A stretch of DNA of 64,000 bases from Colius striatus (lineage: Eukaryota > Chordata > Aves > Coliiformes > Coliidae), in the NCBI RefSeq assembly GCF_028858725.1, contig NC_084774.1, positions 7,786,001 through 7,850,000 on the forward strand. The letters are read 5' to 3'. The notes beneath the pieces were generated by a model. It was not told the origin of the DNA. It did no database searches and worked only from the letters and a program-made list of their open reading frames with translations. Positions 4,714 through 64,000 of this stretch are shown piece after piece. Each line of letters begins with the position of its first letter. Positions within the stretch are counted from its first letter, which is position 1. Position numbers and translations under genes: made by a program.

Positions 4714-4835
4714 ATAATCACTCACAGGTGTCAAGAGCCTCTCTCCGTATCCGTATTCTGGACGTGAATGACAATCCGCCCGAGCTTGCCACCCCCTACG
4801 AAGCGGCTGTGTGTGAGGATGCCAAGCCAGGCCAG
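4714..4835 (+). CDS. CDH22: CDH22 coding exon: EC4/EC5 boundary
   Basis: The acceptor is ttctgtttcag and the donor is GTAGCA. The exon is 122 bases long, begins with two bases of a split codon and ends on a codon boundary. It encodes the last strand of one extracellular repeat, the linker motif LDVNDNPPELATPYEA, and the start of EC5 (VCEDAKPGQ). DxNDN and the following acidic residues are the calcium-binding linker of classical cadherins. Confidence 0.95.
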
Positions 4836-10800: not shown

Positions 10801-13800
10801 GAGCTCCTGCAGACAAGTAGCATAACTTTTCTTTAGCTGGCTCAGCCTTGATAGGAATCCACAAGATCCCGACCAAGGGCCAGAATTAGAATAGATGTCT
10901 TTTCTGATTGGAGAGCTGATTGATACAAAAAGGGACCAGTCCAACATAAATCAGGTCCAGTGAGGAGGAGGTCTGTACACAGCAGCACCTTGCTGTGAGC
11001 AGGCCAATTAGATAAAGACTGCAGACAGTCGGCAGCGACTTCTGACATCTGGCCACAATTGTTCAGCCACTATGCAATTCTTTCCTGACTGCTCTGCTTC
11101 TGGCTGGCAGTGAGGAGCACACATGAGCAGGGAGCTGAGCTGATTTTCAGTCCTTGTTCCTACCCTTCCTGCTCTAGGTTGTCTGGGTGCAGCTGCTACT
11201 TGGGTTTCTGTCTGGCACCGGGACCCTGGAGGGTCCTGTGAAGTGGCCATGTTAATGGGATCATAATGGTTTATGCTGTGCTGGCTGAGCCCCTGAAACA
11301 GCAGATGGGGAGGAGGATGGCTGGCTTGGCTGGGAGGAGCTCTGCCTGCCCCTTGGGAAGTTATAAAAGATCCTAGGGGTACTTGGCCCTCTGATGGAGG
11401 CAGGACCCTTCACCCACAGCTCTTGGGTTTGGAGTAACTGCTCTTGCAGGTTCAGTGCCACCTGCAGACCCCTGTCTGCTCTGGTCTCCACGTTGGCAAC
11501 TGATTTTTATCCTAATTCCTCAATGCAATTCTCAGAGGGTCTTCTGGAAGGTTTCTTTCCCCTCTCTCTGCTCTGACTGTGTTGTTTGCCAGCACAGCTC
11601 AGACACCCACCTGCTGTTGCTCCTGTCTCAGGTTTGCTGTGCCCTGGGTGTGCTGGCTGGTAAGACACCGAGGCTGGTCCTGAGCTGCCTGGCAAAGTGG
11701 CACGTACTGGCGTGGAGATGACCAGCTCTGGGTTGTCAGGCTTCTGAGAGGCTGTGGGACACGGGAGCAATCAGCTATGTCCCTGCTCCTCTGTGATGGA
11801 GGGAAGGGAGGTCCCATTCCCTTTTGGGCAGCTGCTGGCATTGGTGCACAAACAACAGCGGTTGTTACAAGCAAAGGAGTGTGGAGGAGCTCCCAGAAAG
11901 TCCCACTGACCGTGCTGGGGAAGTGACTTTGCTGTGGCTTTCCTTGTTCCCTGCAGACAACACAGCTGCGGTGCACACTCAGAGAGTGGGCTTCAATCGC
12001 CAGGAGCAGGATGTGTACTTGCTGCCCATTTTGGTGGTGGACAGCGGCCCCCCGGCCCTCAGCAGCACAGGGACTCTGACCATCCGCGTCTGCGGCTGCG
12101 ACAGCAGTGGGGCCATCCAGTCCTGCAACAGCACGGCCTTCGTCGTGTCAGCCACGCTGAGCCCCGGCGCCCTCATCGCCCTGCTGGTCTGCATCCTCAT
12201 CCTGGTTGGTGAGTGCCTGCCTGTCCCAGCCTCCTCCTGGGCTGCCCCGTCCCCTCTCCCTGCAGTCACACAAACGAGCACAGGACAATGGGGTGAGCAC
12301 AGTGCAGGCTCCTCTGCCACCCCTGCCCTCACTGGTAGCTGCAGCCTGGCCTGGGCCAGTGGGGGACCACCGGGGAAGCTCCCACCTTTGCCCCAGCTCC
12401 CGTGGGCTGGGCTCAGCGAGGCAGCCAGGGCAGGGCTCTGTGCCAGGCAGGAACCAGCCCGGGCTGCTGCCCAGCACAGGCTGGAGAGCTGCTGGCTTGC
12501 TCACCACCTCCATGAGCAGGAGCCAGGAGCTGCTTGCTGGCTGCTGTGCTGTCCCCACAGCGGGCCTCTCACAGATGGGGCACATATGCACCCCAGCGTG
12601 GTGGCCAAGGGAGGCAGGTGTGGAGCAGGCAGTCGTGCTCTTGCCCTGGAGCACTGGGAGGGCTGGTGTCAGCGTGTGAGTGGGTGTGGGGGCAGGACAT
12701 GGGGCTGCGGTGTGCACAAACCAGAGCATTGCCCAGGTTGGAACCTGCACTCTGGGACTGCTGCTGGCTGCCACAAGCTCGTGCTGGGCCACCACAGCAT
12801 GGCATGAAGGTGCAGCAGAAGTGTGAGCTTGTGTTCATGTGGAAGGGGCTCTGAGGGAGGGGTGTTGCAGATCCCTCAGGTTTAGCGTAGGGCAGCTGAT
12901 GGACGCTGGAGCTGTGACAGCCTCCTGGCATCAGTGCTGATGCTCAACTGTCTCCTGAGGGCTGTGGGACATTTGTGGAAGCCAGTGCTTTGTTCAGTGA
13001 AGTCTCCTCTTCTTGGCACGTCTCTGCTCCCCGTCTCCTGCTGTGTGCTCGTTCAGAAAACCGTTTCCCACAGGGTGCACTTTACACTGGTTTCATTTTC
13101 CAACGCAGTGCAAACAAATTTCTGCCTAATTGCCCAAACGAATAAAGTGCACGTTGGTGCTTTAAAGGTGATGGGATGAATGGATGATGATCCCGGACAC
13201 AGCTGCGGCTCATTGCTCAGGCTCTGTACCATCTGCTTCACGTTCACCCTCCCAACATTTGCCTGCTGTTGTGATTCATGCACCCCGCTTTCCTGCTCAT
13301 CTTCTGCAGAATCCATCCGTGTGTCTGTCCAACTGTGCATTCATCCATCCATCCCTCCTGTCTCAGCAGTCGTGTTGCATGGGAAGGGAAACTCCTGGGC
13401 TGAACCGGAGCCTGGGCAAACCTCTCTTGGAGCCACTGACACAGCACAGCTGCTGCTTGATGAGCCTGGCTGCTGGGAACCATCTGGCACGCCAGCGGGT
13501 CTCGGCTGCAGAGCCAGGGGTGCTGTGCCTCCGCTTCCTGCAGCCAAGCACGGGCTGCCCTTGCCTCACAGCAGCCCCTCAGCCCCACTCACCGTCTCTT
13601 CCTTTCCCAGTGCTGGTCCTTCTGATCCTCACACTGAAGCGACACCACAAAAGCCACCTGACATCTGAGGATGACGAGGACATGAGGGACAATGTCATCA
13701 AATACAACGATGAAGGGGGTGGTGAGCAGGACACAGAGGCCTACGACATGTCAGCCCTGCGCAGTCTCTACGACTTCAGTGAGATCAAAGGTGGTGACGG

Positions 13801-14149
13801 AGGTGGGGGACCAGGAGAAGGGGTCTTGAGCAGAAACACAGCCTCTGAGCTCCGGGCCCTTCCGCAGTGGGTGCAGAGCCCTGACCTGGACTTCTCTGTG
13901 TTCAGAGACTATATCTGCAGGAAAGTGGAGCAGGCAGATGAGGACCTCTCTGTGCCGCCTTACGACTCCTTCCAGACCTACGCCTTCGAAGGCTTGGACT
14001 CCCCCATGCCCTCCCTGAGCTCCATCAACACCTGGTCCAGCGGCTCGGAGCAGGACTTCTCCTACCTGGGGGGCTGGGGGCCCCGTTTCCGGCAGCTGGC
14101 AGCACTGTACGCGGGGCGCAGGGCGGAGGAGGACGGCGAGGAGTCGTAA
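4714..14149 (+). CDS. CDH22: Cadherin-22 (type II classical cadherin), 3' part
   Basis: CDH22 is a calcium-dependent homophilic adhesion protein of the type II cadherin family, mainly neural. It sits in the plasma membrane and links to actin through catenins. Four exons (4714-4835, 5138-5255, 11957-12208, 13611-14149) join with matching phases into 342 complete residues plus a stop. The human protein is about 828 residues, so this is roughly the C-terminal 40 percent. Visible in order: the EC4/EC5 linker motif DVNDNPPEL, EC5 with VVDRDEP, the conserved EC5 end with CGCDSSG, a hydrophobic helix (SPGALIALLVCILILV plus VLVLLILTL), a KRHH stop-transfer, a juxtamembrane DNVIKYNDEGGGEQDTEAYD p120-binding region, and a C-terminal beta-catenin-binding region ending WGPRFRQLAALYAG. 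Near identity to remembered human CDH22 separates it from CDH4, CDH6 and other paralogues. The 5' exons are outside the window. Confidence 0.96.
5138..5255 (+). CDS. CDH22: CDH22 coding exon: first half of EC5
   Basis: The acceptor is ctccccacag and the donor is G|GTAAGC. The exon is 118 bases, phase 0 in and phase 1 out. It encodes LIQTISVVDRDEPQSGHHFY and on to FSLLDIK. The segment VDRDEP corresponds to the acidic VDRDE/DxD calcium site of the repeat. The intron before it is only 302 bases. Confidence 0.95.
5256..11956 (+). other. CDH22: CDH22 intron, about 6.7 kb
   Basis: This intron lies between the two EC5 exons and runs from donor GTAAGC to acceptor ttccctgcag. I see no exon, RNA gene or recognisable transposon in it. 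Several open frames of 60-170 codons occur on both strands but show no family resemblance and look like chance in GC-rich sequence. Confidence 0.8.
11957..12208 (+). CDS. CDH22: CDH22 coding exon: end of EC5 and start of the membrane helix
   Basis: The exon is 252 bases, completing the split Asp codon and ending at phase 1 before GTGAGT. It encodes DNTAAVHTQRVGFNRQEQD, then LPILVVDSGPP, the conserved LSSTGTLTIRVCGCDSSG, paired cysteines, and the first half of the transmembrane segment (ALIALLVCILILV). The membrane helix is split by the following intron, as is usual in classical cadherin genes. Confidence 0.96.
12209..13610 (+). other. CDH22: CDH22 last intron
   Basis: This 1.4 kb intron splits the transmembrane segment. 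The donor is GTGAGT and the acceptor is ttcctttcccag. It is GC-rich at the 5' end. The long open frames that cross it are read-through of exon frames into intron and have no protein support. Confidence 0.85.
13611..14149 (+). CDS. CDH22: CDH22 last coding exon: cytoplasmic domain
   Basis: The exon begins with the second half of the transmembrane helix (VLVLLILTL) and a basic KRHHKSH anchor. The juxtamembrane p120-catenin region (EDDEDMRDNVIKYNDEGGG, EAYDMSALRSLYDF) follows, then a short glycine-rich spacer. The beta-catenin-binding tail comes next (PPYDSFQTYAFEG, SLSSINTWSSGSEQDFSYL, WGPRFRQLAALYAG). The frame stops at TAA 14147-14149. The cytoplasmic tail is conserved with human CDH22 except for a shorter glycine-rich spacer. 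Confidence 0.97.
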
Positions 14150-49197: not shown

Positions 49198-49344
49198 TCA
49201 CAGCCTCTCCTGCTCTGATATGCGGCTCTCCTTGCCATCCTCCTGGGCCACAGGCTGGCCCCCAAGCAGGGTCTCCTGCACGGGTAAGTCGTCTGTCTCC
49301 TCAGGCCGCTGGTTCAGATTCTCTCCAGGCTTCCCGGCCTCTAT
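49198..49344 (-). CDS. CD40: CD40 exon 9: TRAF-binding tail and stop
   Basis: The exon encodes 48 residues and TGA (49198-49200). It contains PVQET at residues 250-254, the TRAF1/2/3/5-binding PxQxT motif, in the same numbering as I recall for human CD40. The end is LLGGQPVAQEDGKESRISEQ-ERL. Upstream is PEETDD (243-248), which fits the TRAF6-type PxExx(acidic/aromatic) pattern, whereas the human PQEINF site is not present as such. Confidence 0.96.
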   Translation of the reverse strand: MEAGKPGENLNQRPEETDDLPVQETLLGGQPVAQEDGKESRISEQERL

Positions 49345-52300
49345 CTGCACAGGGCAAGGGGTCAGGGGCCGGCAGCTATGTCTCCTCACCTCTGTGCCTA
49401 CATCTTTCCACAGGCTTCTGCTACACTTCTGTGCAGGGCAGAGCCTCACTCTGTACAGGTCCCTCTTGTGTCAGCATTTGCCAGCAGCATCCCAGCATTT
49501 CCCTAGCCCTTGTCCTGTCACAACCACGCAGCCCTAGGACTGTCCCAACCCCTCCTGCCCTGCAGAGCCACAGCCCCTATTCTCTTGCTTTCTGATGCTG
49601 GCACATCCCCAGCAGTGCCCAGGAGGGACCCCAACCCATTGCTGGAGGACTCTGGGCAGACTCACCTCCATCTCCACCCGTCGCCTGGAATCTGGATGGA
49701 AAGATGGACAGAAAAGGCAAATCAGGTGAGAGCACTCCAGCCTTGAAGGGAGCTCTCAGGGGTCAGAGCCTGAGCTAACATTGTGCCTGGTGCTGCTGCC
49801 AGGCTGGAGAGGCCGGAGGCCACAGCAGCGGAGTCGGGCTGGACCCACAGAGCACAGCGCTTTCATCCAAGAGCTGTCCCAGCTTGGGCTGCAGCAGTAC
49901 AAATGTGTCTGCTCCTCAGGGCAGAGCCCCCTGACACAGCAGGGCAATGGGCTCAAGGAGCTGTGCCCTTACCTCTGCGGACCAGGCAGTAGAGGCAGAG
50001 GCCCACGAAGCATGTGATAACCGCGGCCGTGATGGGGATCAGCACTGAGATCGAGGAGCGTCTGCCCGACTCTGCCAGGGAAGAAGGGTCAGTGAGGCAC
50101 CTGCCTGACACTGCCTCCAAGACACCAAGCACCTCTGCTCCAGAGCCAGCCCTGCAGCAACCCCTCAGAGATGAGCAGGAAGGCATCATGCTGGCTGTGC
50201 AGTCAGACCCTCCCCTCCCCAAACCACCCTCAGGCCAGAGCAGCTCCTCTGAGTGCCATGGGAGCCAGAGCACTAGGAGATCTCTGCTCTGCACCAACCC
50301 AGTCTCAGGCACTAGGCACTTACCACAGATCACATCCGAGGTGTTTGTCCCTTTCACCTTTACCACCAGCCCTTTTTCCTCACAGCTGCAGGGAAGAATG
50401 AGACCATGTAACCACAGTGGCAGCCTGAGCACACAGAAGGCCTCCAGGAAGGAACCACCAGGGCTGAGCAGCCACCAGAGCTGCACAAGAAAACATCTTG
50501 AGCTGAGCCTGCTGGGCTCCAGAGGAGCGAGTGGACACCAGGGCCTGTGCTGTGCGACGTGGACAGCAGTTACATAGCAGGGCCCCAGACTGGGGTCCAG
50601 GTCTGGAGCTGCTGGAACTGTAGAGGGCTGCCCAGTCAGGGAGACCACAGCTCTCAGAATAGCTCAGAGATGACAGGCTACAGGTGGCTCTGTGGGGAGG
50701 TAATTTCTGGGCACAAAGTGAAATCCAATGGCTGGCAGCTGAAGTGAGACTAATTCAGCCTGGAAATAAGGCTCACGTGTCTACCAGGGAGTGCAATGAA
50801 CCCTGGAGCAGCTTTTGAAAGACAGGGACAACCTGCCAGCCTGTGGCATCCTCAAAGCCAGTCTCCCCCCTCCCCCCACCGAGAGGGCTGGTGCCTCAGC
50901 TGATGACTACAGCCAAGGAGTGTGCTGGGAGGGAGAGCCTGGACAGGACTGTAGCCTCTCATCCCATGCTCCCCAGTGCAGACAACAGCGTGGACATCCC
51001 TGCAGGGGCTCGCGCTCTGTGCAGCTCAGGTGGTCACCAGCACCTGGGTGTCTGCCTTGAGCGCAGCCTCGCTGCACTCAGCTCTGCTGCTCTCACTCCT
51101 GCCCTATGCCAGCCTGACATCCCTCAGAGACCATCTCAACCACCTAGTCCCCAAGGCCACTCAAGGCTGTCAGCTCATGCTCACAGGGACTGGGCACAGC
51201 TGGGGATAGGTGATGGAGGTGGTCAGCACTCAGATGATACCTTGTCCAGGGATGGCACGGCTCAGTTTTGGAAGAGATGTTGGAGAAGGTGCCTTCAGCA
51301 CAGGGCTCGCAGGGGGATGACATCTGGGCGATGGCCTTGGCTGGAGAGGAACAGAGGTTGCAGGTCAGTGGGGGCTGTTGGAGGTGAGGGGCTGTGAGGG
51401 CCAGGGGAGCATCACTCCCTGTGGCAATGCTGCCAGGCACAGCTCCCCTCACACCCTGCTGGGGCAGCCCCCTTTTCCCTGGGGGACCTCAGGTCAATGC
51501 TGCCAGAGCATCAGTCAGTCTCACAGAGGGAGGAGTTGGTCAGACTTACCTGCCACAAAGCCAAAGCCAAGCTGGCAGGGCTGGTTCTCCACACAGGTCT
51601 GGCAGCTTCTATCAGAACAGTGCATGCCAGACTGGCACTGGCACACTGTGTTGTGTGTTGTGTTTCCTTGTGTCTTCACAACAAGGCCGGCGTCTGGGCA
51701 GAGGGAGCAGGAGTGGGGTGAGACTGGGGGACACCAGCCCCTGCAGCCCCCTCAGGCCTGAGGTGGTGGGCACGGGGAGCACTTACTGTCTTCACAGATA
51801 TCGTGTGGGGCACAGTGTCTCTCCTTGGTCCAGCTCTGCTGGTAGTGTCCACTCTCACAGCGGGTGCAGACAGAGTGTTCTGTGCCATTGCATTCGGAAA
51901 CCAGCTTTTCCCCTGCAATGAAGCCTGGTGAGGAGTGGGAAACGGGGCTTTCTCCCTTTCCAGGCAGTAGCTCCGCCAGCAGGATGGGAGAGCATAGGAG
52001 GCTGTGGATGCCAGGGCCTGATGCCACTCTGGTGGCCAGGGCTGCAGGGACAATCTCCCCTGTGGCTGCACAGGGCAAGGTAGGGAGGGCTGTTGAGTGC
52101 TGAGACAGGAGAGTGGGAGGGAGTACACTGCCTCCAGCACTCCAAGGACTGGGAAATGACCTGCCGGGGAGAATGGGAGCTGGCAAATACCATCATGACT
52201 TGGTAGTGCCAGTACCAGCACTCTCCCTACAAGCTGCTCATGCCATGGGGTCCTACGGCTGCAGGAGCACAGACAGCCCTAAGAGAGCTGAGACAAATTT

Positions 52301-53927
52301 GGTGGTGTCCAGGACATCTCCCACAGTACCCACAAGGTCCCTAGTTGCTCTAGCACTGAAGTAACAGGGAGGTGAAACTGATAACACTGCTGGCACCAGC
52401 ATGGAGGGGCTTAGTCACACCAAGCTGGGCTTCCTTTGCTGCGGCCAGGCAGCGGGTCCTGGCACTGCTAGGCCTTGGGGTCCCTGGGGAGGGGAAGGGG
52501 TCTCTGTACCTGGCTGACACCGGTTGCAGCACCTGCCCTTGTGTTCATACTGCTTATCAAAGCACGTTACAGCATCGCCAGGCTCCCAGCACTGCAAGAA
52601 ACAAGAGCTGTGAATCCATGCTGCTCCCCAGCACTGGGGCACTGCCTGGCTTCTGTGAGCGTGTGTGTGCCAACCCATGACCTCAGGTGAGGGCTTCCTC
52701 GCATCGCTCTTCCCATGCCTGTGCTAACCACAGACCGCAGCAGAGCCGCCTGCGCTGTCTGGTGGCACCAGCACTCTCTTTGAAGTGGGGTGGCAGCGAT
52801 TCTGGCAGGGTGGCCCCACATTTACACAGATTTCCTACCAGATGGTGATCACACGGTGCCCGGTGCCCCTGCCAACAGGGTCCCAGTCAGGGGCAATGCT
52901 GTTAACCATTAGCCTACCATGCCCAGAGCACTGCCAGCTCCTTCCCAAGGCTGAGGCATCAGCCACGAGGGAAAGGAAAGCCCCTGCAAGAAGAGTGGAG
53001 AAGAGGCAGGAGATCAGATCTTGGGCCAGTCCGGGTGCAGGAGGGCACCCACAGCACTGTACCCTCACACACAGCAAGCCCTGTGCTGCCCATCCTCAGC
53101 AGCCTGGCAGCTCCTGAGACAGCTGCTGGAACCTGCCCACCCCTGGGAGCAGGACGGGCTCCGCAGAGCCCTGCAGGGAGGTGAATGCAGGGCTGGCAGG
53201 AATAGGCACAGACATGGCTGGGCACAGCTGAGCCCCACGGGCCCCTCAGGCAAGCCCTGGCTCGACGGGGCAGCGATGGGGCTGAGGGCTCCGGGCGGTC
53301 TGACAGGGAATCCGGCCCCACCATCGCACGCGTCTGACACTCAACAAAAAGGGAAGTGAAAGAGCTGCAGGCAGGGCCGTCCCTGCGGCCCTTCAGCCTC
53401 CCAGCACCCGACCCGGGCTCAGGGGGACTCCGTCCACGGAGCCGGACCGTGCTCAGGGCTGCAGGGCGCGGGGCTCGAGGCCGCCCGTCGGTACCCGCAC
53501 CTCATCCCTCTCCCGGCGCAGGGCCGCGCTACAGATCCCGCTGCGGCTCGCTCCCGGCAGGAAAACGAAAGCACGGCCGCTGTGCCGTGGGGCAAGGGCC
53601 GCCCGCAGCCCCCTCCGCCGCCCCCGCCCCGCCCGCGCTGCCGGGCGCCGCTGGGGAGGCCCCGGGGCCGCCGGACCCTCGGGCTCGGGCTGCGCTGCTC
53701 GGGGCTCTCTCCGCTGCCAGCGCCCCGGCCGTGGGCCTCCCGCTCCTATAGCGCCTCGTCCCGTTCCCGTGCCAGGGGCCGCGCCAGAGCGAGCGGACAC
53801 CGCCCTACAGCGGGCAGCGAGGGAGCAGCCGCAGCCCCCCCGGCCCCTGTCCCCCACCCCCGCAGCCCCACTCACTCACCCCCAGCAGCGCGGCGCCCAG
53901 CAGCCCCACCAGCCCCAGCCGCTTCAT
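49198..53927 (-). CDS. CD40: CD40, TNF receptor superfamily member 5 (complete)
   Basis: CD40 is the co-stimulatory receptor on B cells, macrophages and dendritic cells. It binds CD40 ligand and signals through TRAF proteins to NF-kB and MAP kinases. Nine coding exons (53927-53880, 52591-52510, 51912-51787, 51693-51550, 51340-51241, 50385-50324, 50071-49973, 49691-49666, 49344-49198) join in phase into 834 bases, or 277 residues plus TGA. That is the length I recall for human CD40. Order: signal peptide (1 to about 23); four cysteine-rich domains (about 25-187) with N-glycosylation sequons NGT, NTT, NIS and NTS; a transmembrane helix (about 195-218); a basic RR and SRRR anchor; and a tail with PVQET (250-254) and the conserved end QEDGKESRISEQERL. 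It is convergent with CDH22 and divergent from NCOA5. No canonical polyadenylation hexamer is seen in the 1 kb after the stop. Confidence 0.97.
49666..49691 (-). CDS. CD40: CD40 exon 8: micro-exon in the cytoplasmic tail
   Basis: A 26-base exon, too short to be seen as an open frame by itself, encoding (D)SRRRVEME. It has a strong acceptor (ttccatccag) and donor (GTGAGT) and restores the frame between the membrane exon and the last exon. Human CD40 also has a very small exon here. Skipping it would shift the frame. Confidence 0.85.
49973..50071 (-). CDS. CD40: CD40 exon 7: transmembrane helix
   Basis: A 99-base exon encoding ESGRRSSISVLIPITAAVIT then CFVGLCLYCLVRR. About 24 hydrophobic residues (about 195-218) are followed by arginines, giving a type I membrane topology. 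Acceptor ccctggcag, donor GTAAGG. Confidence 0.95.
50324..50385 (-). CDS. CD40: CD40 exon 6: end of CRD4
   Basis: A short 62-base exon encoding (S)CEEKGLVVKVKGTNTSDVIC, which matches human [21 protein letters not shown]. Acceptor tccctgcag, donor GTAAGT. It closes the last extracellular disulfide domain and carries an NTS sequon. Confidence 0.95.
51241..51340 (-). CDS. CD40: CD40 exon 5: CRD3/CRD4
   Basis: The exon has 100 bases, acceptor tcctctccag and donor GTATCA. It encodes AKAIAQMSSPCEPCAEGTFS, NISSKTEPCHPWT, aligning with human [26 protein letters not shown]. The NIS sequon is at the position equivalent to the human NVS. It ends at phase 2. Confidence 0.95.
51550..51693 (-). CDS. CD40: CD40 exon 4: CRD2/CRD3
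   Basis: The exon has 144 bases from acceptor ctctgcccag to donor GTAAGT. It encodes NAGLVVKTQGNTTHNTVC, QCQSGMHCSDRSCQTC and NQPCQLGFGFVA, matching human NLGLRVQQKGTSETDTIC and its continuation. It carries an NTT sequon. Phase is 1 in and 1 out. Confidence 0.95.
51787..51912 (-). CDS. CD40: CD40 exon 3: CRD1/CRD2
   Basis: The exon has 126 bases, begins by completing a split Gly codon and ends at phase 1 before GTAAGT. It encodes GEKLVSECNGTEHSVCTRCE and WTKERHCAPHDICED. The NGT sequon and six cysteines are in view. This matches human CD40 KLVSDCTEFTETEC and the following CRD2. Confidence 0.95.
52510..52591 (-). CDS. CD40: CD40 exon 2: start of CRD1
   Basis: The exon has 82 bases, acceptor ttcttgcag and donor GTACAG. 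It encodes the end of the signal peptide (CWEPGDA) and the start of the first cysteine-rich domain, VTCFDKQYEHKGRCCNRCQP. The CCxxCQPG signature matches CD40 (human KQYLINSQCCSLCQPG). Confidence 0.95.
53352..53361 (+). promoter_or_regulatory. Ets-IRF composite element in CD40 intron 1
   Basis: GGAAGTGAAA is a perfect match to the GGAANNGAAA composite element bound by PU.1 or SpiB with IRF4/IRF8 in B cells and myeloid cells. It lies in CD40 intron 1, about 570 bases downstream of the start codon. Its sequence is identical to the element at 54381-54390. Confidence 0.45.
53561..53570 (+). promoter_or_regulatory. IRF/ISRE-like element in CD40 intron 1
   Basis: GAAAACGAAA matches the GAAANNGAAA core of interferon-stimulated response elements. 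It lies in the CpG island about 370 bases inside the CD40 gene. CD40 is known to be interferon-inducible, so the position is plausible. The match alone does not prove use. Confidence 0.4.
53880..53927 (-). CDS. CD40: CD40 exon 1: signal peptide
   Basis: The ATG reads from 53927 on the minus strand and encodes MKRLGLVGLLGAALLG before a GTGAGT donor at 53879. This is a short basic N-region plus a hydrophobic core, as expected for a signal peptide. The start is chosen because it is the only in-frame ATG that gives a signal peptide joining in phase to exon 2. A CpG island surrounds it. Confidence 0.9.
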
Positions 53928-54380
53928 GGCTGCGCCCCGCGGCGCCGCCGCCCGCCCTATAACGCCTCGTCCCGTTCCCGCCCAGGAAAGGGGCGTTGGG
54001 CCGCGGCCCCGGGGCTTCCCCGGCAGCGCCCGGACGGGGGGCGAGAGCAGAGCTAGGGGGGCTGAGCGCACGGGGCCGGGCGCGGGGCAGCTCCTCGCCA
54101 GCGCTCCCGGGCCCGTCGCAGCCGTCCCTCCCTGCCGGGACACACAGGCCCCCACTGCTGCTGCTCCCGGGACTCACGGGGTCCCCACTGCAGCTCCCGG
54201 CTGAGCCGCGGGGCTGGGGGATCCCGCACAAGGGGCTCAGTGTCTTGCTATCATTGTCTCCTGCCAGCCCCACAGAGCTGCTCCCTGTCTGCACCTTGCT
54301 GGGGTGGCAGGAGCCAGCTGTAGGCCATGCTGAGGAGAGTTCTGGCCCAGCCACCTCATTCCTGAGGCAGAAGTTGGAGG

Positions 54381-54390
54381 TTTCACTTCC
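54381..54390 (-). promoter_or_regulatory. Ets-IRF composite element upstream of CD40
   Basis: Read on the CD40 strand this is GGAAGTGAAA, a perfect GGAANNGAAA match, about 455 bases upstream of the CD40 start codon. The same 10-mer occurs in intron 1. Binding by PU.1/SpiB with IRF4/8 is an inference from the motif and from CD40 expression in B cells and antigen-presenting cells. Confidence 0.45.
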
Positions 54391-55343
54391 ACAACTCAGA
54401 GCTGTGCACCTGGAGAGTCCCTTGTTGCTGCCCCCAGACCCTGGCCTCTCTATGGAGTCTCCACAGATACATCAGCCTGGAAAGAGGAAGGGGCAAAAGC
54501 GCTGGGCGCCTGTCTGTGCCTCTGCCTGGCTGCCCACATCCAGCTCAGTTCCCTCGGAGTCCCCCCACAGTCCCCAGGGAAGTTCCAGGCTCCCCAGCCT
54601 GCTCTGGAGGCTTTGCTGGCTCTATCCTCGCCATCAGCCCATGTGCTCAGACAGGGACCAGTGGCTTCTCAGCATCCTCACTGCCTCGGTCACAGCCCGC
54701 TGCGCTCTGTCCTACCATGGCCGTGGTGACGCCGCCGGCCCAGCCAACACTCAGCGCCTCGGCCCCGGTCCCGAGGCTGCGGGCCGGCGCGGGGGCAGCG
54801 TGTTTCCCCGGGGGCGGCAGCAGGGTGGGCGGCCGCCTGCGCTGGATTCCCCGGCCCAGCCTCACTTCCCAGAACCGACTCACTCGAGAGCGAGAAGGGT
54901 CCCAGGGGGGCCTCGAGGGCAGAGAGCAGGAGGCAGCGGTGGGGAGGGGATTTCTGGCCCCAGCTCCCGCGGGCCTGGCTTGGGAAGTCCCCACCGATGC
55001 GTTTGTGACCCTGGGCCGCCAGCGCTACCCGCTCCCGGCTCCGTGCGGCGCGGGGGCCGCGGGGCTCCGTGCCCGGCAGGAGCTGCTCCGGCCCGGGTCG
55101 CTGTGCCGGCACAGCGTGGGCCGCTGGCGCTGCCGCGGAGCCCGACCTTTGTGCTGCGCCGGGGAGACACGGCCGGGGCCAGAACCAGGGCAGGGGCACG
55201 GGCTGCGACGGGACACGGGCCGGGGCTGGGGCCAGAGCAGGGGCCATGGCGGGTCCGGCCCGGCCGCGCCCCAGGGCCCCGCCCACCCCCGCGCGCGGCC
55301 GGGTGGCGCCACCCAGCGGCCCGCGCCCATCCGTCCCCGCGAG

Positions 55344-55445
55344 ACTACCAGTCCCAGCGTGCTTTGCGGAGGCGTCTCGCGGAGCATGCCGGGAGACACG
55401 CATCTCGCGGCGCGCCGTAAAGCGCGAGACGTCGCCATGGCGGCC
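55344..55445 (+). promoter_or_regulatory. NCOA5 core promoter motifs (ZNF143-like pair, YY1-like)
   Basis: ACTACCAGTCCCAGCGTGC followed by TTTGCGG (55344-55369) resembles the long ZNF143/THAP11 site. An inverted partial copy, GCATGCCGGGAG, lies at 55384-55394... A YY1-like GCCATGGCGGCC sits at 55434-55445. This grouping is typical of TATA-less housekeeping promoters and places the NCOA5 start at about 55.40-55.45 kb. Confidence 0.55.
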
Positions 55446-55534
55446 GTGCTTTCTCTCCGCTTTGCGACGGCGTCGTGCGGCAGCAGCGGTTGGCGCCTTT
55501 GTCCTGGCGGCGGCGGCGCGGGCCCGGCACGGCG
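55440..55534 (+). other. NCOA5: NCOA5 untranslated first exon (5' end approximate)
   Basis: A strong donor GCG|GTGAGT ends an exon at 55534 within the CpG island just after the promoter motifs. The next exon with a good acceptor on this strand begins at 58617, so this is taken as the NCOA5 leader exon. If transcription starts before 55437, the ATG there opens an out-of-frame upstream reading frame that would overlap the main start. Confidence 0.6.
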
Positions 55535-58500
55535 GTGAGTGTGCGGGGCCGGCCGGCGTTGCGGGGCCGAGCGGGCGGCGTTGCGGGGCCGGCCGGCGTG
55601 CGGGGCCGGGCGGGCGGCGTTGCGGGGCAGGGCTCTGGTGCGGCCGCGCGCGCTCCGCGGCCGCCGGGCCGGGCCGGGCGTGCCCCGCGGCCTGCGCCTC
55701 CGCCTCAGCGGACGGGAAGCGGCGGCGGGAGCGCGGGGCCGCCGGCGCAGCTCCGCTTCCTGCGGCGCGGCGGGGCCCAGCGGCGCCCGGCCCCCGGTGA
55801 AGGTGAGGCTGGCGGTCCCGCTGTGGAGGGGAGCGCGGCCCTGGAAGCCCCGCGGCCTGCGGCGCAGCTCGTGCTGCTGCCGAGAGCTGTGGGGGCCCCG
55901 GCGGGAAGGGCCTCGGGCAGTTGCGGCTTCAGCAGCCTGGCTCGGCGTCCCTCGCAGGGGGGTGGAAGCCTTCTGCATGCCGATGTTTTCCGTGTGGGCA
56001 GCGCCGCATCTGTCCGAGCGGGGCGGGCAGCTGTTGCTGCTGCCCGAGAACGGCTTTCCCGGCGCTAGGCCCGGCTTTGGGGAGCGGGGAGTGCCCGGCG
56101 GGGCTCGGCTCTTGGGCGCCGCAGGGGAAGCGTTCTGCGGGGCTGGCTTTACTGCTTTTTCCGTGCCCGGGAGCTTGCAGGCTTCTGTGTCATGTTCCTC
56201 TCAGGTCAAGCTAGTTGAACGTCCCACTTGACCTGTGTTTTGCTGTCTGAAACTGTAGCACTATTAATAAATAACTTTGTTTTTAAGCATAAGACTTTTA
56301 GGGTAATGTGGCTTGCATTAAGTTCCAGAGGTTTTATTGGCACTTGAGCTAATATGGGCTGTTCGTTGCACAAACCTGTGCAGGCGTGGCAGTTAGTCTG
56401 TGTCGGGGGGGGGACTGTCGCAGTTTAGCTGCCCAGGTTCACAGTTGGCTTCTTCCAGGTACAGTTGTAGAATAAGGCTCCATGCAGATATTAATTGTTC
56501 ACCTGGTGTCATGTGCCTGAAGCTGGGATAACATTCACTTACTCTGGTCTTAAAATTACTAAGTGGCCCTTAACTATATAACCTGTGGAGAGGAGACTGG
56601 TAAGAGGCAGTAAATATTCTTATATGAAAGTTCTCCAGTGATTCCACCAGCCTTAGTGTTTGGGACTTGTTTGTTTTGAAAGTGACCTACAAGTCAAAAG
56701 ATAGCTCCTTGTTTTTCATCATAGGGAAAGCTCTTGCACTGTCTTCTCCAGCCACCCCCTGCTACCCCGCCCTTAAGAAAAAGAAAAGGGAATTACTTAC
56801 TGCTTTTTATACTGAAAGAGAAATGTCCCCCCAGCAGCAGTGCCAGGTTTTGCTGGTGCCCTCTTGCCATGAGCATACATGACATCTCACACACACTCAC
56901 GCAGCCTGAGCATGACAGCTGGTTCCAACTTAGATATGTCCCTGCTCCCCATGGGAGCTTTGACTAGGTAGGTCTTTCTATGTTTTATAGCCACTTAATC
57001 ATTTTGAGATAATTTTGAAAACTTTTTTCCCCTCAGCTGCTGAGAACTCGAACTGCAATAGTGCAGTGCTTCTGTACAGAGATGTGGGATGAGAGTAGGT
57101 TCTGATAAGGAGGATAGATCTGTGTGTAGACAAAGTTACAGGAGGATCGAAGCAAATATGGTAGAAGAAATTACTTTTTTTTTTTAGTTGGTTGGTTGTT
57201 AGGTTTTCTTCCTCCTCTTCCCTGTTCTGGCAGTTTAGTTAATCTTAAAAAGATTTTTAGCCCAGAAGGCATCTTTTGCCTCCCATCCCTGCCAAGTGTC
57301 CTAAAAGGAGAAAAGCAAAAGGAATGTAAAGTTAACTGATATTGAGAAAACAATATTTTCTTTCTCAAATCTGAAGTAGATGGACTATTTTCATGCCAGT
57401 GAAGTGTTGTAAAAGTGTTTGTATAAAACTTATATTGACGTGTTTGTTTAGAGATCACTTTTAAGTTGCAGTGAATAGTGGTTACTGTTAGGAAGTGTGT
57501 TGGTTGTAGACTTCTCATGATTAACAGTGGAAGTTTCTGGTGATTCAGTACCTCCAACTTTCTCATGTTGTAAGCAGAAAATCCCATCCTCTGTTCCTGT
57601 AAATGAATATTTAGGAAGAATGACAACTTTGTTAAATAGTTCCCAAACCTTAAAGTTCACCTCAGAAGCTTCAGTGGTTTTCTTTCTTTCTTCCTTTCTT
57701 TCCCTTTTTTAAGCTCCTTGTAGTGGTGACTTTTAAACCAGAAAGTACAAACCCTGGGTGGGGTATGGTGGGGATTTTTTTTGTTACCTTGGTAGGGTTT
57801 TTTCTGTTGGCTTTTCCTTGCTTGTGTGTTGGGGGGTTTTGCTGTGGTTTTTTGGGTAGGTTTGTGCTATGGATGTTGCTGGCTGCTCCAGCTTTGCCTG
57901 CAGTAGTTGGGTTAAGGAACTGTACTTTGTGCTGTGGAGGTGAGGCAGCAGTACAGTGTTTATATGGGGGTGATGACATTCTCAGCTGTGGACCCGTCTT
58001 CTGTGGGAGCCAGCATCTTGATGGGGACAAGGGCATGCTGTTTAGTAGGGATAAAAGTGAGAAGCTGTGTTTTCCGGGGTTGGAAAACTAAGGTTTCATA
58101 AGTGAGGTGGTCCTAGTGTGGTCACCTAAGAGTATTTCAACAGTATTTCCTGATACCTCATTCAAAGGCTATCTTGAAATATTTGGATCCTTACTGTGCA
58201 ATGTGATGAGTGTTTCCGCTCATTAAAACATTTCATAAATTTCAGCACTTCTTACAAGCAGGCTGGAGAAATAGATACAGCAATGGATGTACTGAGAAGC
58301 TTAAAGTTAAGATGCTTTAGTGGAAAATAAGTTCTATTTCTATCTTAGTTTGGAGTTAAACCATTAAAACCTATTTTTTAGAGTAACTAGGCTTGGCACC
58401 TTTGGGTATTACTGAAACGCTCAACCAGAACGCTGCGGTGTGCGCTTCTGCCAGGCCTCTGCACCCCTCTGTTAAGATTTCTCTGGAGTGACGTTTGCGT

Positions 58501-58616
58501 CAAGCAGACCCAGTTGGCTTCTAGCGTGCAAAGCTGTGAAGTTTAATCGTGTTCCAGTTTGATGTTAATGTCATGGATTGAAATTATATGCTTGGCCGTT
58601 TTTCTTTTTTGCGAAG
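55535..58616 (+). other. NCOA5: NCOA5 intron 1
   Basis: This 3.1 kb intron passes from the CpG island into AT- and T-rich sequence. A run of G lies near 56405-56413, a T-run near 57173-57185, and a CT-rich tract at about 57679-57710. A 122-codon plus-strand frame (57723-58091) is Phe/Gly/Cys/Leu-rich and appears to come from the T/G-rich composition. No other gene is seen. Confidence 0.6.
57679..57710 (+). repeat. CT-rich simple repeat
   Basis: A (TTTC)n/(TTCC)n-type polypyrimidine tract ending in a T-run, inside NCOA5 intron 1. Confidence 0.7.
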
Positions 58617-58803
58617 AATTGGATTGGGAACGAAAGCAAAATGGCTCGAGGACGCAAGAGCAATAGCATCAAACAGAGCGACTTCACTAACAGCACCAAC
58701 CCTCAGGATTTAGAGAGAAGACTTTTTGTCGGCAATTTGCCCACAGACCACATGACTCGTGAAGAAATGGAAGAGATATTTTCAAAATATGGCAGAATCA
58801 GGG
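58617..58803 (+). CDS. NCOA5: NCOA5 first coding exon: RRM first half
   Basis: The acceptor is a strong pyrimidine tract ending gcgaag and the donor is G|GTTAGT. Translation starts at the ATG at 58641 (context GCAAAATGG), giving MARGRKSNSIKQSD, then NPQDLERRLFVGNLPTDHMT and EEMEEIFSKYGRIR. This is the beta1-alpha1-beta2 part of an RRM with RNP2 LFVGNL. Twenty-four bases of leader precede the ATG. It ends at phase 1. Confidence 0.9.
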
Positions 58804-61800
58804 GTTAGTATACTATCTTATGCCTTTTGGTGGCTGGGGATTTAGTGAGAAATATGACTTTCGTGCTTGTCAAATGCTAATTGATAGTGATGAGAGGAGT
58901 AACTAATGTTGTTCCTAAAAAGTGACCTTTTAATGATAACTTTCTATGCAAAAGTGATTCCTTTGGTACAGCTGAAACATAATGTGTATATATATCAGTT
59001 GTGTTTTAGCTTTGGGGGTCCCAGTGTCATGTTACAATCCTCCTTTGAGATTTGATGTTTCCCAGGGAATTTTCATAGTTTCTGGGTAGAAAGCTCCTCT
59101 GCTTGTTCACCTGGTGGGGGCGACAGGATGGATGACTTGGGTGTGGGTTACTGCTGTCCCTTAGTTGTAACTAGTCTTGCCCTGCTGTTGACTTTTCCAG
59201 CCCTCAGCATGTACCGTGGCTATGGGTTCGTGCAGTATGACCGTCTAGAAGATGTCCAGGCCGCTCTGGACGGTGAGAAGGGTCGTCTTTATAAAGGGTA
59301 TAGATTAGGTAAGGAAGCGGCTGCGTGCTCTCCTATTGCCCCCAGCATGTATTCTGGTGGAAAGAGTGCTTTTGCTTTAAAGCTCTCTGGGAAGGTCACT
59401 GTGGAAAACGTGTTTGGCGTTAGTCTAAAATCACTTCTACTGGTGTCTATTTGTCTTCTGAGTTATTTGCTGTAAGTGCTGTGTGGTTCATCTGCAGTGT
59501 GGTTACTCTTGCTGCTTAGGTCTTACTCTGACCTTACTTTTACGTGTTAGTGTTTGAAAAGCTTGATTAAGAAATCATTCAACACGTGAACCCTGGGAAG
59601 CAGTGGCTGAAAATTCATGTATGTAGTTCTAAAAACACTTCTAGACCAATATTTGGCTTCATCTTGACAGGTTCAGGGGAATTGGTCACACTGTTTAGCA
59701 GCTTGTTGGATAAGTAAGCTTAACATGGAATATTCTTTTGGACATGTGAAATCAATCTGTAAGTAGTGCTGTGAATACTAGGTGCTTTAAAAAGGCCATT
59801 TTCATAAAGATGAAACTAATTCTGTCCTGGGAGCCAACTTAAGAAACAAATGGTGAGAAATCCAAGAGCAACCTATTAAATGCAAACGCAAAAACATTAC
59901 CTTCAATGTAAGCCTAGGCTAATTTGTGGAAAACTAGTTTGATTTAGTAACAAAAAGAGCAATAGATAGTAACTTGTGGGGTGGTGTATGTACAGTAACA
60001 AGTACAAGCTTAAAAATGGAAATGGGGGCAAATAGACAAGGAAGGGTACAAGAAGTGATGGCCAGCATTGTCCAAGTCTAGAAGCTTAAAGAAGAACAAC
60101 TGCAGCTGCTTTAGAAGCCAAGGTGTAAGTGGAAATTAAACTTCTGGCTGACAAAGGCCACCTAGTTTTCAGTGAATGTTTTTGCTGTCTATTTTTTTTA
60201 AGAGGCAGAAGGTATTTGTAATATAATTTCCATCTCAGTAGCAAAATAGGTAAAACAGGAGCTACCAAAACTAAGACCTCTAAAAATTAAATCCAGCATC
60301 TCTGACACTCAGTGAAAGGAAGACTTGTCTGGGCCATTGATGCTGGTTTTCTAACAAGCCTTGGAAAACTGGGGGGTTTCCAGGGGCCTCGCAGAGCGCT
60401 ACAGATGTGCCAACAGGCATCATTAAGTGCAACGAGCCTGGCTGCAGCCCTGCTGAGAAAGAAGTTCTTCCACCTACCACTCAATGAGAAGGAAATAAAT
60501 TAATGATCATCAAGATAAATCCTGTCTAAGTTACTCATACCATACTCAAACTCTGCAGCTTACAGTAGCAGTGTTGATGTCAAAGGCTTCTGCAAGGTGC
60601 TCAATTCAAACTAGAAACAGCTGAAGCCATGTAGGGTTAAATGGATAAGAAGTGAATCTCAGGGTAACATAGATGGGTTTGCTCAGTGCTTTGCATGGTG
60701 TTCTGGAAAAACTGATTCCTGGACGTACAGTGCTTTTCTAAGGGACTTGGAAAGAAAACACACAATCTTATTTTACAAAGAGTATGAAATAATGAAGCTT
60801 GAGTCACTGATGATGCAATGACCTGGACTCCTTCCTAAGCTGGATGCAGGCAGAGCTGAGCTTTTGGTAAAGCCAGAAGGGAAGACCTGCACCCAGCCAT
60901 AGTGCTTTTGCCATCCTTAGCCTTACAAACCACATATTTGTAGATAGGGAGGTTCTGGTACTTGAGGAATTTTGCTGCTGGAATACTGTGTACAGTTCTG
61001 GTATGCCTGAAAAGGATAATGCTAAATTGTAGAAGCCTCGGAAAAACCTGAAGAAAGCTTAAAGAGTCGAAGAACAAGCCCTACAAAAGCCTCAAGGTAA
61101 AGGGTCAATGTGATCTGTGTGTCACTGACCTGGCAATAAGCGAGTTCCAATCTAGTAGGTATAGCTATGACAAATCCTTAAATGGAAATAAATAATGTTC
61201 TTTTACAGCAAAGTAATTTGCTTCTGGAATAACTTACTGGAGCTTTGGTGGTTTCTATGCTATGAAGACTTTTAAATTGGAATTGGATGTTTTGCTAAAA
61301 GATAAACTCTAGTTCAAAGCCACTGCTGCACTTGAGATAGGAACATGGTTAAAGAAGCTCTTGTCACCTGTGTCAGAAGGTTCAGAAGGTTGCACTGTGT
61401 GATTACAGTGGCCCTGTCATCTCAAAACCCTACAGGACAGAAGACCTTTCTTTTTTTTTTTTTAATTTTATCAGTGTTCAAATACTTCACCTGTAAATGC
61501 TGTTGGCATTAAATAAAATGTTATTAAATTGTTCATTTTGCACAAGAGAAAGATCCCTGTCAAAGGTGTTTTTTTCTTCTAGTAAAATGCTTTTGTTCAG
61601 CTTTAAATACATTTTTTAATTTGGAAGAAATGTATGGCATTGAGTGTAAAAAATCATAACAGATGTCTGCAATGGCATCTTAAAACAGAAAATAAAAGCA
61701 ATCTTAAACCAAAGAAAGCAGATAGTGTCTTGCTTAAAGATAACACTTGTCTCGAAGGGGAAAAGAAAACAGTTGCTTCAGTTACCCAGTCTGAGTGTTA

Positions 61801-63270
61801 AATATAATTGCTAAGAACACGTTAAAGGTAAAAGGCTTTGGGAGGGTTTAACTTCAGTGTGGCATTGTCCTGATACAAATGCATAGCGGTGTCTCCATAT
61901 CTTTAATGAATAAAACTGTGGGGAATAAATGCCCATCAAATTTAGTTTGTGACCATTGCAGCTGTATTTGGTCGTGGGGAGGCTGCTTTGTGGTCCTATG
62001 AATGTTGCTGTGCTGCATTTGTAGTTAGTGTTCAGATTGCACTTCTCCTCCCCCACACAAAGAGAACACGCTACTTCTTGAATGACAACAAAGCACAATT
62101 GGAACTCATCCCTTCATTCTCATTTTAATCTTGGAAGTAAGGAAGGTTAGTTTGGGAAGTTACAGAAGATGTGAAGGCTTAGTCTGCCTAGACATTGTGG
62201 CAGGTTTATTCTCTTGCAAGAGCTTTGAAAGCAGTTAATGCAAATAACTAATAAATGTTGATTACCTAAAGATTCTCAGAGAGCAGATAGGACCTAGGTT
62301 TGTTTTGTTCCTTTCCTTAAAAGACTGTCAGGGTGAAACATCTTCAGTCCTTTCTATTTGTTCTTACCCTGCTCCAGTATGTTATTTCATCCTCAGTCAG
62401 CTCTTACAGAAGGTTTTACTTCTTCACAGTAGAATGATATGAGTCCCTGCCCATTCTGGGCAACTTCACTTTTTGTGGTTGAGGACAAGACTCTTGTTTC
62501 TTCATCTCTTACTTCTTTGTTTTTCACTCCATGGTGTGTTTCATGGAGTAACTCGGAAGCCAACCAGTTTTCAAATTCATGATCTGTTGCATCAGTTTGC
62601 ATCATGTTAACAGTGGTGTTTTGAATGCACCACGTTGCCTTCGTAAGGAACTCATGCCTCAGGCTCCTTGAATCCTGTCTCCTCCATGATGGAGGCTGTA
62701 CCACTTAATGCTGCAGCAGTCCCTTGGAAGGCAGTTGCATGTGTCACTTGAGAACCCTTGGACTACTTTCAACAAGGGTAGCGACATGCTCCCTTGAACA
62801 GGACTGGCTGTGAACTTAAGACTGTGCTGGCCATCAGCTTCCTTTCTCGGAGGTTTTCAGGCTCTGCTTTTTCTCCTAGAGTCCATGAGTTGCGTTCTGC
62901 TTGCTCATAGACTGCAGAAGAAAGAGATTCTCTTGTGGAATGAAGAGTCTGGATGTAGGCCTAAACATAAAAAGCTAAAACCTCCCCCAGCTGTCTGCCC
63001 TGCTTTGAAGTCAAATAAATTTTAATTATATTGTACTATCTAAACTTAATAAAAAATTGTCAAAGTGACAATGTCTCTCTGCTGAATGGATTTTCTGGCA
63101 CCATCTGGATGTTGTTGAGCTTAAGTTGCTTTCATTTGAATTGTGCTGATGATCTTTTTTTTGTTCCATAGCATTGAACAGATGGGTTGATTATTCTTTA
63201 CAGATATTAAGAAAGCAGTGGAAAGAAGAAATATGAGTAAGGCTTCATCAAGGTCCAGTCCGGCACGCAG
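58641..63270 (+). CDS. NCOA5: Nuclear receptor coactivator 5, 5' part with N-terminal RRM
   Basis: NCOA5 is a nuclear coregulator that binds oestrogen receptors and other nuclear receptors. Three coding exons (58641-58803, 59201-59308, 63204-63270) join in phase into 112 residues. Residues 28-33 (LFVGNL) are RNP2 and 60-67 (RGYGFVQY) RNP1 of an RNA-recognition motif, ending near LYKGYRLDIKKAV. Residues 101-112 (MSKASSRSSPAR) align with the start of canonical human NCOA5 as I recall it (MNTAPSRPSPTR), and the exon ends in the same phase expected before the DPYGFGD segment. The remaining exons lie beyond 64000. The gene order CD40-NCOA5 supports the call. An hnRNP C/RALY-like RRM protein is the alternative but fits the context and residues 101-112 less well. 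Confidence 0.85.
59201..59308 (+). CDS. NCOA5: NCOA5 second coding exon: RRM second half
   Basis: The exon has 108 bases, acceptor cttttccag and donor G|GTAAGG. It encodes ALSMYRGYGFVQYDRLEDVQ then AALDGEKGRLYKGYRL. RNP1 is RGYGFVQY. Phase is 1 in and 1 out, so the frame runs from the first RRM exon into the exon at 63204. Confidence 0.92.
59309..63203 (+). other. NCOA5: NCOA5 intron 3, contains an old CR1 piece
   Basis: This 3.9 kb AT-rich intron contains a decayed CR1-type LINE 3' region (about 60.96-61.44 kb) and an AATAAA-like stretch near 61.51 kb. Minus-strand frames at 61811-62098 and 62393-62704 look unusually protein-like in composition but match nothing I recognise. No snoRNA or microRNA could be supported. 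Confidence 0.65.
60960..61440 (+). mobile_element. Degraded ancient CR1-type LINE 3' region
   Basis: The order of phrases follows the 3' part of CR1-like elements of birds and turtles. GGAATACTGTGTACAGTTCTGG (60976 on) comes first, then GAACAAGCCCTACAAAAGCCTCAAGG, then a segment TTGGATGTTTTGCTAAAAGA, CTCTAGTTCAAA and GTGATTACAGTGGCCCTGTC. The 3' ends of ancient amniote CR1 copies show these in the same order. It is heavily diverged, has no intact frame, and lies in the sense direction within NCOA5 intron 3. Identification is from memory of the family. Confidence 0.6.
63204..63270 (+). CDS. NCOA5: NCOA5 third coding exon, matches the human N-terminus
   Basis: The exon has 67 bases, acceptor ttctttacag and donor GTAAAG. 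It completes Asp91 and encodes DIKKAVERRNMSKASSRSSP, AR. From the internal Met101 it aligns with the beginning of canonical human NCOA5. It ends at phase 2 (AG), which fits an Arg completed by the next exon. It links the RRM to the body of NCOA5. Confidence 0.85.
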
Positions 63271-64000
63271 GTAAAGTACCTGGAAGCAGTGAGTTGTGCT
63301 AGGAAGGCTGGGCTTCTGGGGCAGCAGCCCAGTGGCCTGTGCTAAATGTCTGTGTCTCTTCCCCACCGCCACCTCCCTAGCCAAACGGAGATGCTCAAGC
63401 GAGACAGCTGGGACGTGGCTGCTCCACTTCTCAGAGCCCTTCTGGCGCTGACACCTCAGGAGGCACGAGGAAAACCTTGTGTCTGCTGCTGTTACTACAG
63501 CTAAGCGTTATGTTTTGCAGCACAGGTTGTAAGAGACTTGTGAGCAAGAATATACTTGATGTTTGCTCCTACGCGAAGTGTCAGAGAAGCTGAAGTGTAT
63601 CTGGAGAATGCCAAGAAGCTGTAGCATTCTCAGTACTGTGCTGCAGAGGACGTTGGGATCTTGCCTCTTCTGATGTCAAAAGCTTCCAGTGCTGAAATGA
63701 GACTGGAAAGGAGCACATCATTAAAGCACAAGAGGAAGCAAACGTCTCTATTGCGCTCTCCCACCTACATCTGGCCTTGTGCTGTCTGTACTTGGAGCCG
63801 GACCCCTTCTGTGCAGTCAGTGGTGTGTCCCTGACAACTGCTCCTGGATTCCCCCTCCTTAGCTGGCACAGTGCGTGCATTCCCCACACATCTTGTGTAT
63901 GAAGCTCTGGGCAAGTGGAGAATCACAGGCTGTCCTGTCACAGAAAGACAACTTGAGTTTCCTTTCCATGGTGTTACTAGGGAGTACATGAAGATGTGCT
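63271..64000 (+). other. NCOA5: NCOA5 intron, runs out of the window
   Basis: Sequence after the last recognised NCOA5 exon. The next canonical segment (DPYGFGD and the Arg/Asp-rich region) is not found before 64000. An acceptor-like cctccctag at 63372-63380 opens a short frame of 41 codons to TAA 63502-63504, but it resembles nothing in NCOA5. Confidence 0.55.

Follow-up and report, generated by a model that had tools for sequence, protein, structure and literature searches.

Introduction

The closest described system is the zebrafish ncoa5 gene, whose long form, ncoa5-L, carries an RRM that was aligned across ten fish species and reported as conserved (PMC9501657). In the same report RT-PCR pointed to the use of a distal start in the ovary and a proximal start in the testis, the testis-type form ncoa5-S thereby being devoid of the RRM. 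Salmon NCOA5 has also been called an RRM-containing protein and was pulled down by CpG oligonucleotides (PMC3598971), a result repeated in PMC8066739; the NCOA5 peptides given in PMC3598971 appear to come from the body of the protein and not from the RRM. Elsewhere, PMC8038597 names NCOA5 only in a table in its available text, PMC4825013 cites a paper on planarian Ncoa5, and the interaction between NCOA5 and SAFB1 is described as independent of RNA (PMC10901741). Among titles in the open literature, we found none on an RRM in bird NCOA5 or on its loss in mammals, and no relevant paper in the same literature on Neosin, the insect relative with which the initial annotation compared NCOA5, alone or together with NCOA5.

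In the present study we have analysed a window of 64,000 nucleotides of Colius striatus DNA, by which we mean the whole stretch, whose initial annotation had placed an RRM at the front of NCOA5. The core of that claim is not new, as fish studies have already described an NCOA5 with an RRM as well as a short form without it. The zebrafish report (PMC9501657) fits the RRM being old in bony vertebrates.

Results

Three plus-strand exons joined at GT/AG borders give on translation 112 codons and two bases free of stops. The coding part of exon A (58641-58803, 163 nt) encodes a basic leader and the first half of an RRM with the RNP2 motif LFVGNL, and ends at the donor GGG/GTTAGT. Exon B (59201-59308, 108 nt, with equal phase at both ends) supplies the second half with the RNP1 motif RGYGFVQY and the donor TAG/GTAAGG. 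In exon C (63204-63270, 67 nt, donor CAG/GTAAAG) the end of the RRM, made of a split D codon and IKKAVERR, is followed by a segment matching the start of human NCOA5. The assignment of exons A and B is based on the open frame and Pfam RRM_1, with the splice scores in addition for exon B, and that of exon C on the frame, the alignment to RALY and hnRNPC and a 12-mer match. No in-frame ATG lies between the stop at 58566 and the ATG at 58641, whose A at -3 and G at +4 make for a good start context. The first ATG of exon C (63233-63235), also in frame, encodes residue 101; its position fits the human start quoted in the initial annotation, and it may serve as the start of an RRM-less form.

The Pfam profile RRM_1 matches residues 28-90 over positions 1-69 of its 70 with 53.2 bits (E 2.7e-14), against a gathering score of 20.7 bits. 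The exon coordinates and the complete RRM proposed in the initial annotation are confirmed by this match and by the stop-free joining of the three segments, and the two RNP motifs that it named are present in the translation. Both motifs contain aromatic residues, which in RNP1 and RNP2 usually contact RNA. A search against all PDB chain sequences gave 149 distinct sequences at E 0.01 or better, and among the best 60 of these the closest solved structures are RALY (73.7 bits) and hnRNPC (71.7 and 65.3), the next different protein being Nab3 (45.9). Identity reaches 37/92 residues to RALY and 37/87 to hnRNPC (about 40-43%), in both cases ungapped. The window holds the RRM and 12 further residues, and the hnRNPC alignment extends weakly to residue 110. 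An AlphaFold model calculated from the single sequence, with no alignment as input, was poor (pLDDT 50.4, pTM 0.32) and did not show the strand order of the expected beta-alpha-beta-beta-alpha-beta fold. Pattern searches for relatives of the 112-residue protein in genome and viral contig collections devoid of vertebrates gave 113 and 11 matches, and tblastn confirmed 0 of them.

Splice sites between about 56.5 and 64.0 kb (513 donors and 565 AG acceptor sites) were scored from general consensus frequencies. The donor of exon B ranks 2 and that of exon C 7 among the 513, and the donor of exon A, with a score of 0.7, is weak (rank 44), which would suit regulated inclusion. Among the 565 acceptors those of exons B and C rank 18 and 29, and rank 6 is held by a candidate acceptor, TTTTTTGCGAAG/AAT, with a score of 6.7, after which positions 58617-58640 may form a 5' untranslated part of exon A. 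Upstream, between the CD40-like gene described below and the RRM-bearing gene, lies a CpG-rich stretch (55001-56500) that is probably a promoter; in its three 500-base steps the CpG observed/expected ratio is 1.00, 1.00 and 0.69 and the GC content 0.78, 0.82 and 0.54. A candidate donor at 55802 sits inside this stretch and, together with the acceptor at 58617, hints at a putative non-coding first exon. Long open frames (53963-55417 on the plus strand, 485 aa, and frames overlapping it) also occur in a stretch of 70-80% GC and probably just reflect base composition.

The end of exon B (90 codons and one base) is also the exact end of the Pfam match, and therefore the continuation of the RRM into exon C depends on the residues that follow. 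Both the RALY and the hnRNPC alignments run beyond this second junction (LD/IKKAVE), and of the nine residues after it D, I, A and E are common with RALY and hnRNPC. We took each of the 351 AG sites from 59320 to 63970 and scored the nine in-phase residues that would follow it. Because 63204 is the only one of these acceptors to give 4/9 matches to both proteins, exons A and B most probably go with exon C, which bears the methionine matching the human start. The acceptor at 61337 gives four matches to RALY and three to hnRNPC, but its acceptor score is poor (-8.5), and the remaining sites give at most three. The acceptor at 63172 outscores 63204 (8.1 versus 3.0), yet it yields 1/9 matches and a different frame. 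The 32 bases that this site would add before exon C contain an ATG with GGT TGA directly after it, which may represent an upstream open reading frame of very few codons. A retained intron after exon B was also considered; it is open for some codons, but bears no resemblance to RALY.

Residues 101-112, MSKASSRSSPAR, are identical at 7/12 positions to the start of human NCOA5 as quoted in the initial annotation; the human 12-mer, taken from there, is of limited length and biased in composition towards S, R and P. This is the highest value among 1293 stop-free 12-mers beginning with Met in the six frames of the window, the runner-up reaching 6. When the human 12-mer was shuffled 200000 times with its M kept in place, 133 of the shuffled versions attained 7/12. 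With this match, and with the RALY/hnRNPC alignment continuing across the junction, the proposal that the RRM exons join in phase to an exon with an internal methionine is supported. The two leftover bases at the end of exon C, AG, would open the next codon in the phase that we presume from the human sequence. The body of NCOA5, which has an anticodon-binding-like domain, an LXXLL motif and an RD-rich stretch, falls outside the window, beyond base 64000, and for this reason the name rests on the 12 residues, the phase and the neighbouring genes; three short patterns of human NCOA5 are absent from the plus strand of the window.

The neighbours comprise, along the window, a cadherin gene (+), a CD40-like receptor gene (-) and then the RRM-bearing gene (+). 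The first contains an open reading frame with a cadherin cytoplasmic exon (13172-14146, plus strand; PF01049, E 7.7e-26), one of two among 10 open reading frames with any Pfam match, the other being a sub-threshold Cadherin. A DVNDNPP motif of the cadherin gene is found at 4761 on the plus strand; by gene order this gene would fit CDH22. The receptor gene occupies approximately 49206 to 52723 on the minus strand, its lower bound being approximate. Its two cysteine-rich pieces (52418-52723 and 51755-52192) match TNF receptors, with RANK first (49.4 bits) and CD40 next (43.4), and as single open reading frames give sub-threshold Pfam matches only; a PVQET tail starting near 49284 on the same strand resembles that of CD40. 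This arrangement agrees with what we take to be the human order, in which NCOA5 lies beside CD40 and CDH22. From the sequence, the gene is very probably the 5' end of NCOA5.

Discussion

We propose, with a probability of about 0.88, that the locus is the 5' end of a vertebrate NCOA5 gene whose full-length product would start with a RALY/hnRNPC-like RRM, and whose short form would begin at M101 when that domain is omitted. The RRM would be encoded by two exons and the first bases of a third. The probable site of transcription initiation is the CpG-rich stretch facing the CD40-like gene, and a putative non-coding first exon would be spliced to exon A. Omission of both RRM exons, either by splicing or by use of a downstream start site, would let translation begin at the first ATG of exon C, and the resulting RRM-less protein, initiated at M101, would correspond to human NCOA5 in its canonical form. 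With the RRM retained, the coactivator would possess an RNA-binding surface of its own. One simple change, the omission of the RRM exons, would account for the long, the short and the human forms. The RRM as the front of NCOA5, advanced in the initial annotation, is upheld by the in-phase join and by the long and short forms of fish (PMC9501657); the feature itself is already published there.

Since RALY and hnRNPC are the nearest solved structures among the best 60 of the 149, and the Pfam profile is not matched beyond exon B, one could picture the RRM exons as belonging to a gene of their own, or to a decayed RALY or hnRNPC duplicate, lying upstream of NCOA5 and joined to it in phase by chance. 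We consider this highly improbable: an identity of 37/92 to RALY in an uninterrupted frame does not correspond to a recent copy, the exons are separated by introns, the similarity to RALY extends into exon C at the best of 351 acceptors, and fish NCOA5 itself carries an RRM (PMC9501657, PMC3598971). It is less improbable, though still unlikely, that the exons are genuine NCOA5 exons used in a minor or tissue-restricted form, the main product starting at M101 as in human. The weak donor of exon A, the in-frame position of the first ATG of exon C and the gonad-specific use in zebrafish, with the short form in testis (PMC9501657), would favour a minor form, whereas the intact frame, the exon B donor at rank 2/513 and the favourable context of ATG 58641 speak against it. 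Such a form is compatible with the NCOA5 gene proposed here and differs from it in quantity only.

The canonical human protein presumably lacks an RRM. It is tentatively suggested, at somewhat less than even chances, that the mammalian start lies at what was once an internal methionine, in an older coactivator that bore the RRM, and that mammals dropped both RRM exons, a direct RNA binder thereby becoming a protein that reaches RNA via partners such as SAFB1. Mammals might instead have silenced these exons, or might still include them in a minor form. If the RRM is ancestral and absent in mammals, the studies on human and mouse NCOA5 describe a truncated version, and an RNA-binding function could be tested in birds or fish, where the long and short forms described for the latter make the question open to a direct test.

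The present data add a further vertebrate lineage to the fish for which the feature has been published. The locus shares with zebrafish ncoa5-L an NCOA5 RRM encoded upstream of the start of the shorter form (PMC9501657); the species is a different one, and gonad-biased use is a feature of zebrafish. With RALY (PDB 1wf1) and hnRNPC (PDB 2mxy) it shares, by sequence, the same RRM subtype, ungapped over 92 and 87 residues respectively, whereas the proteins downstream of the RRM differ as far as is known. The likeness to canonical human NCOA5 lies in the segment that follows the RRM, where the human MNTAPSRPSPTR aligns with residues 101-112.
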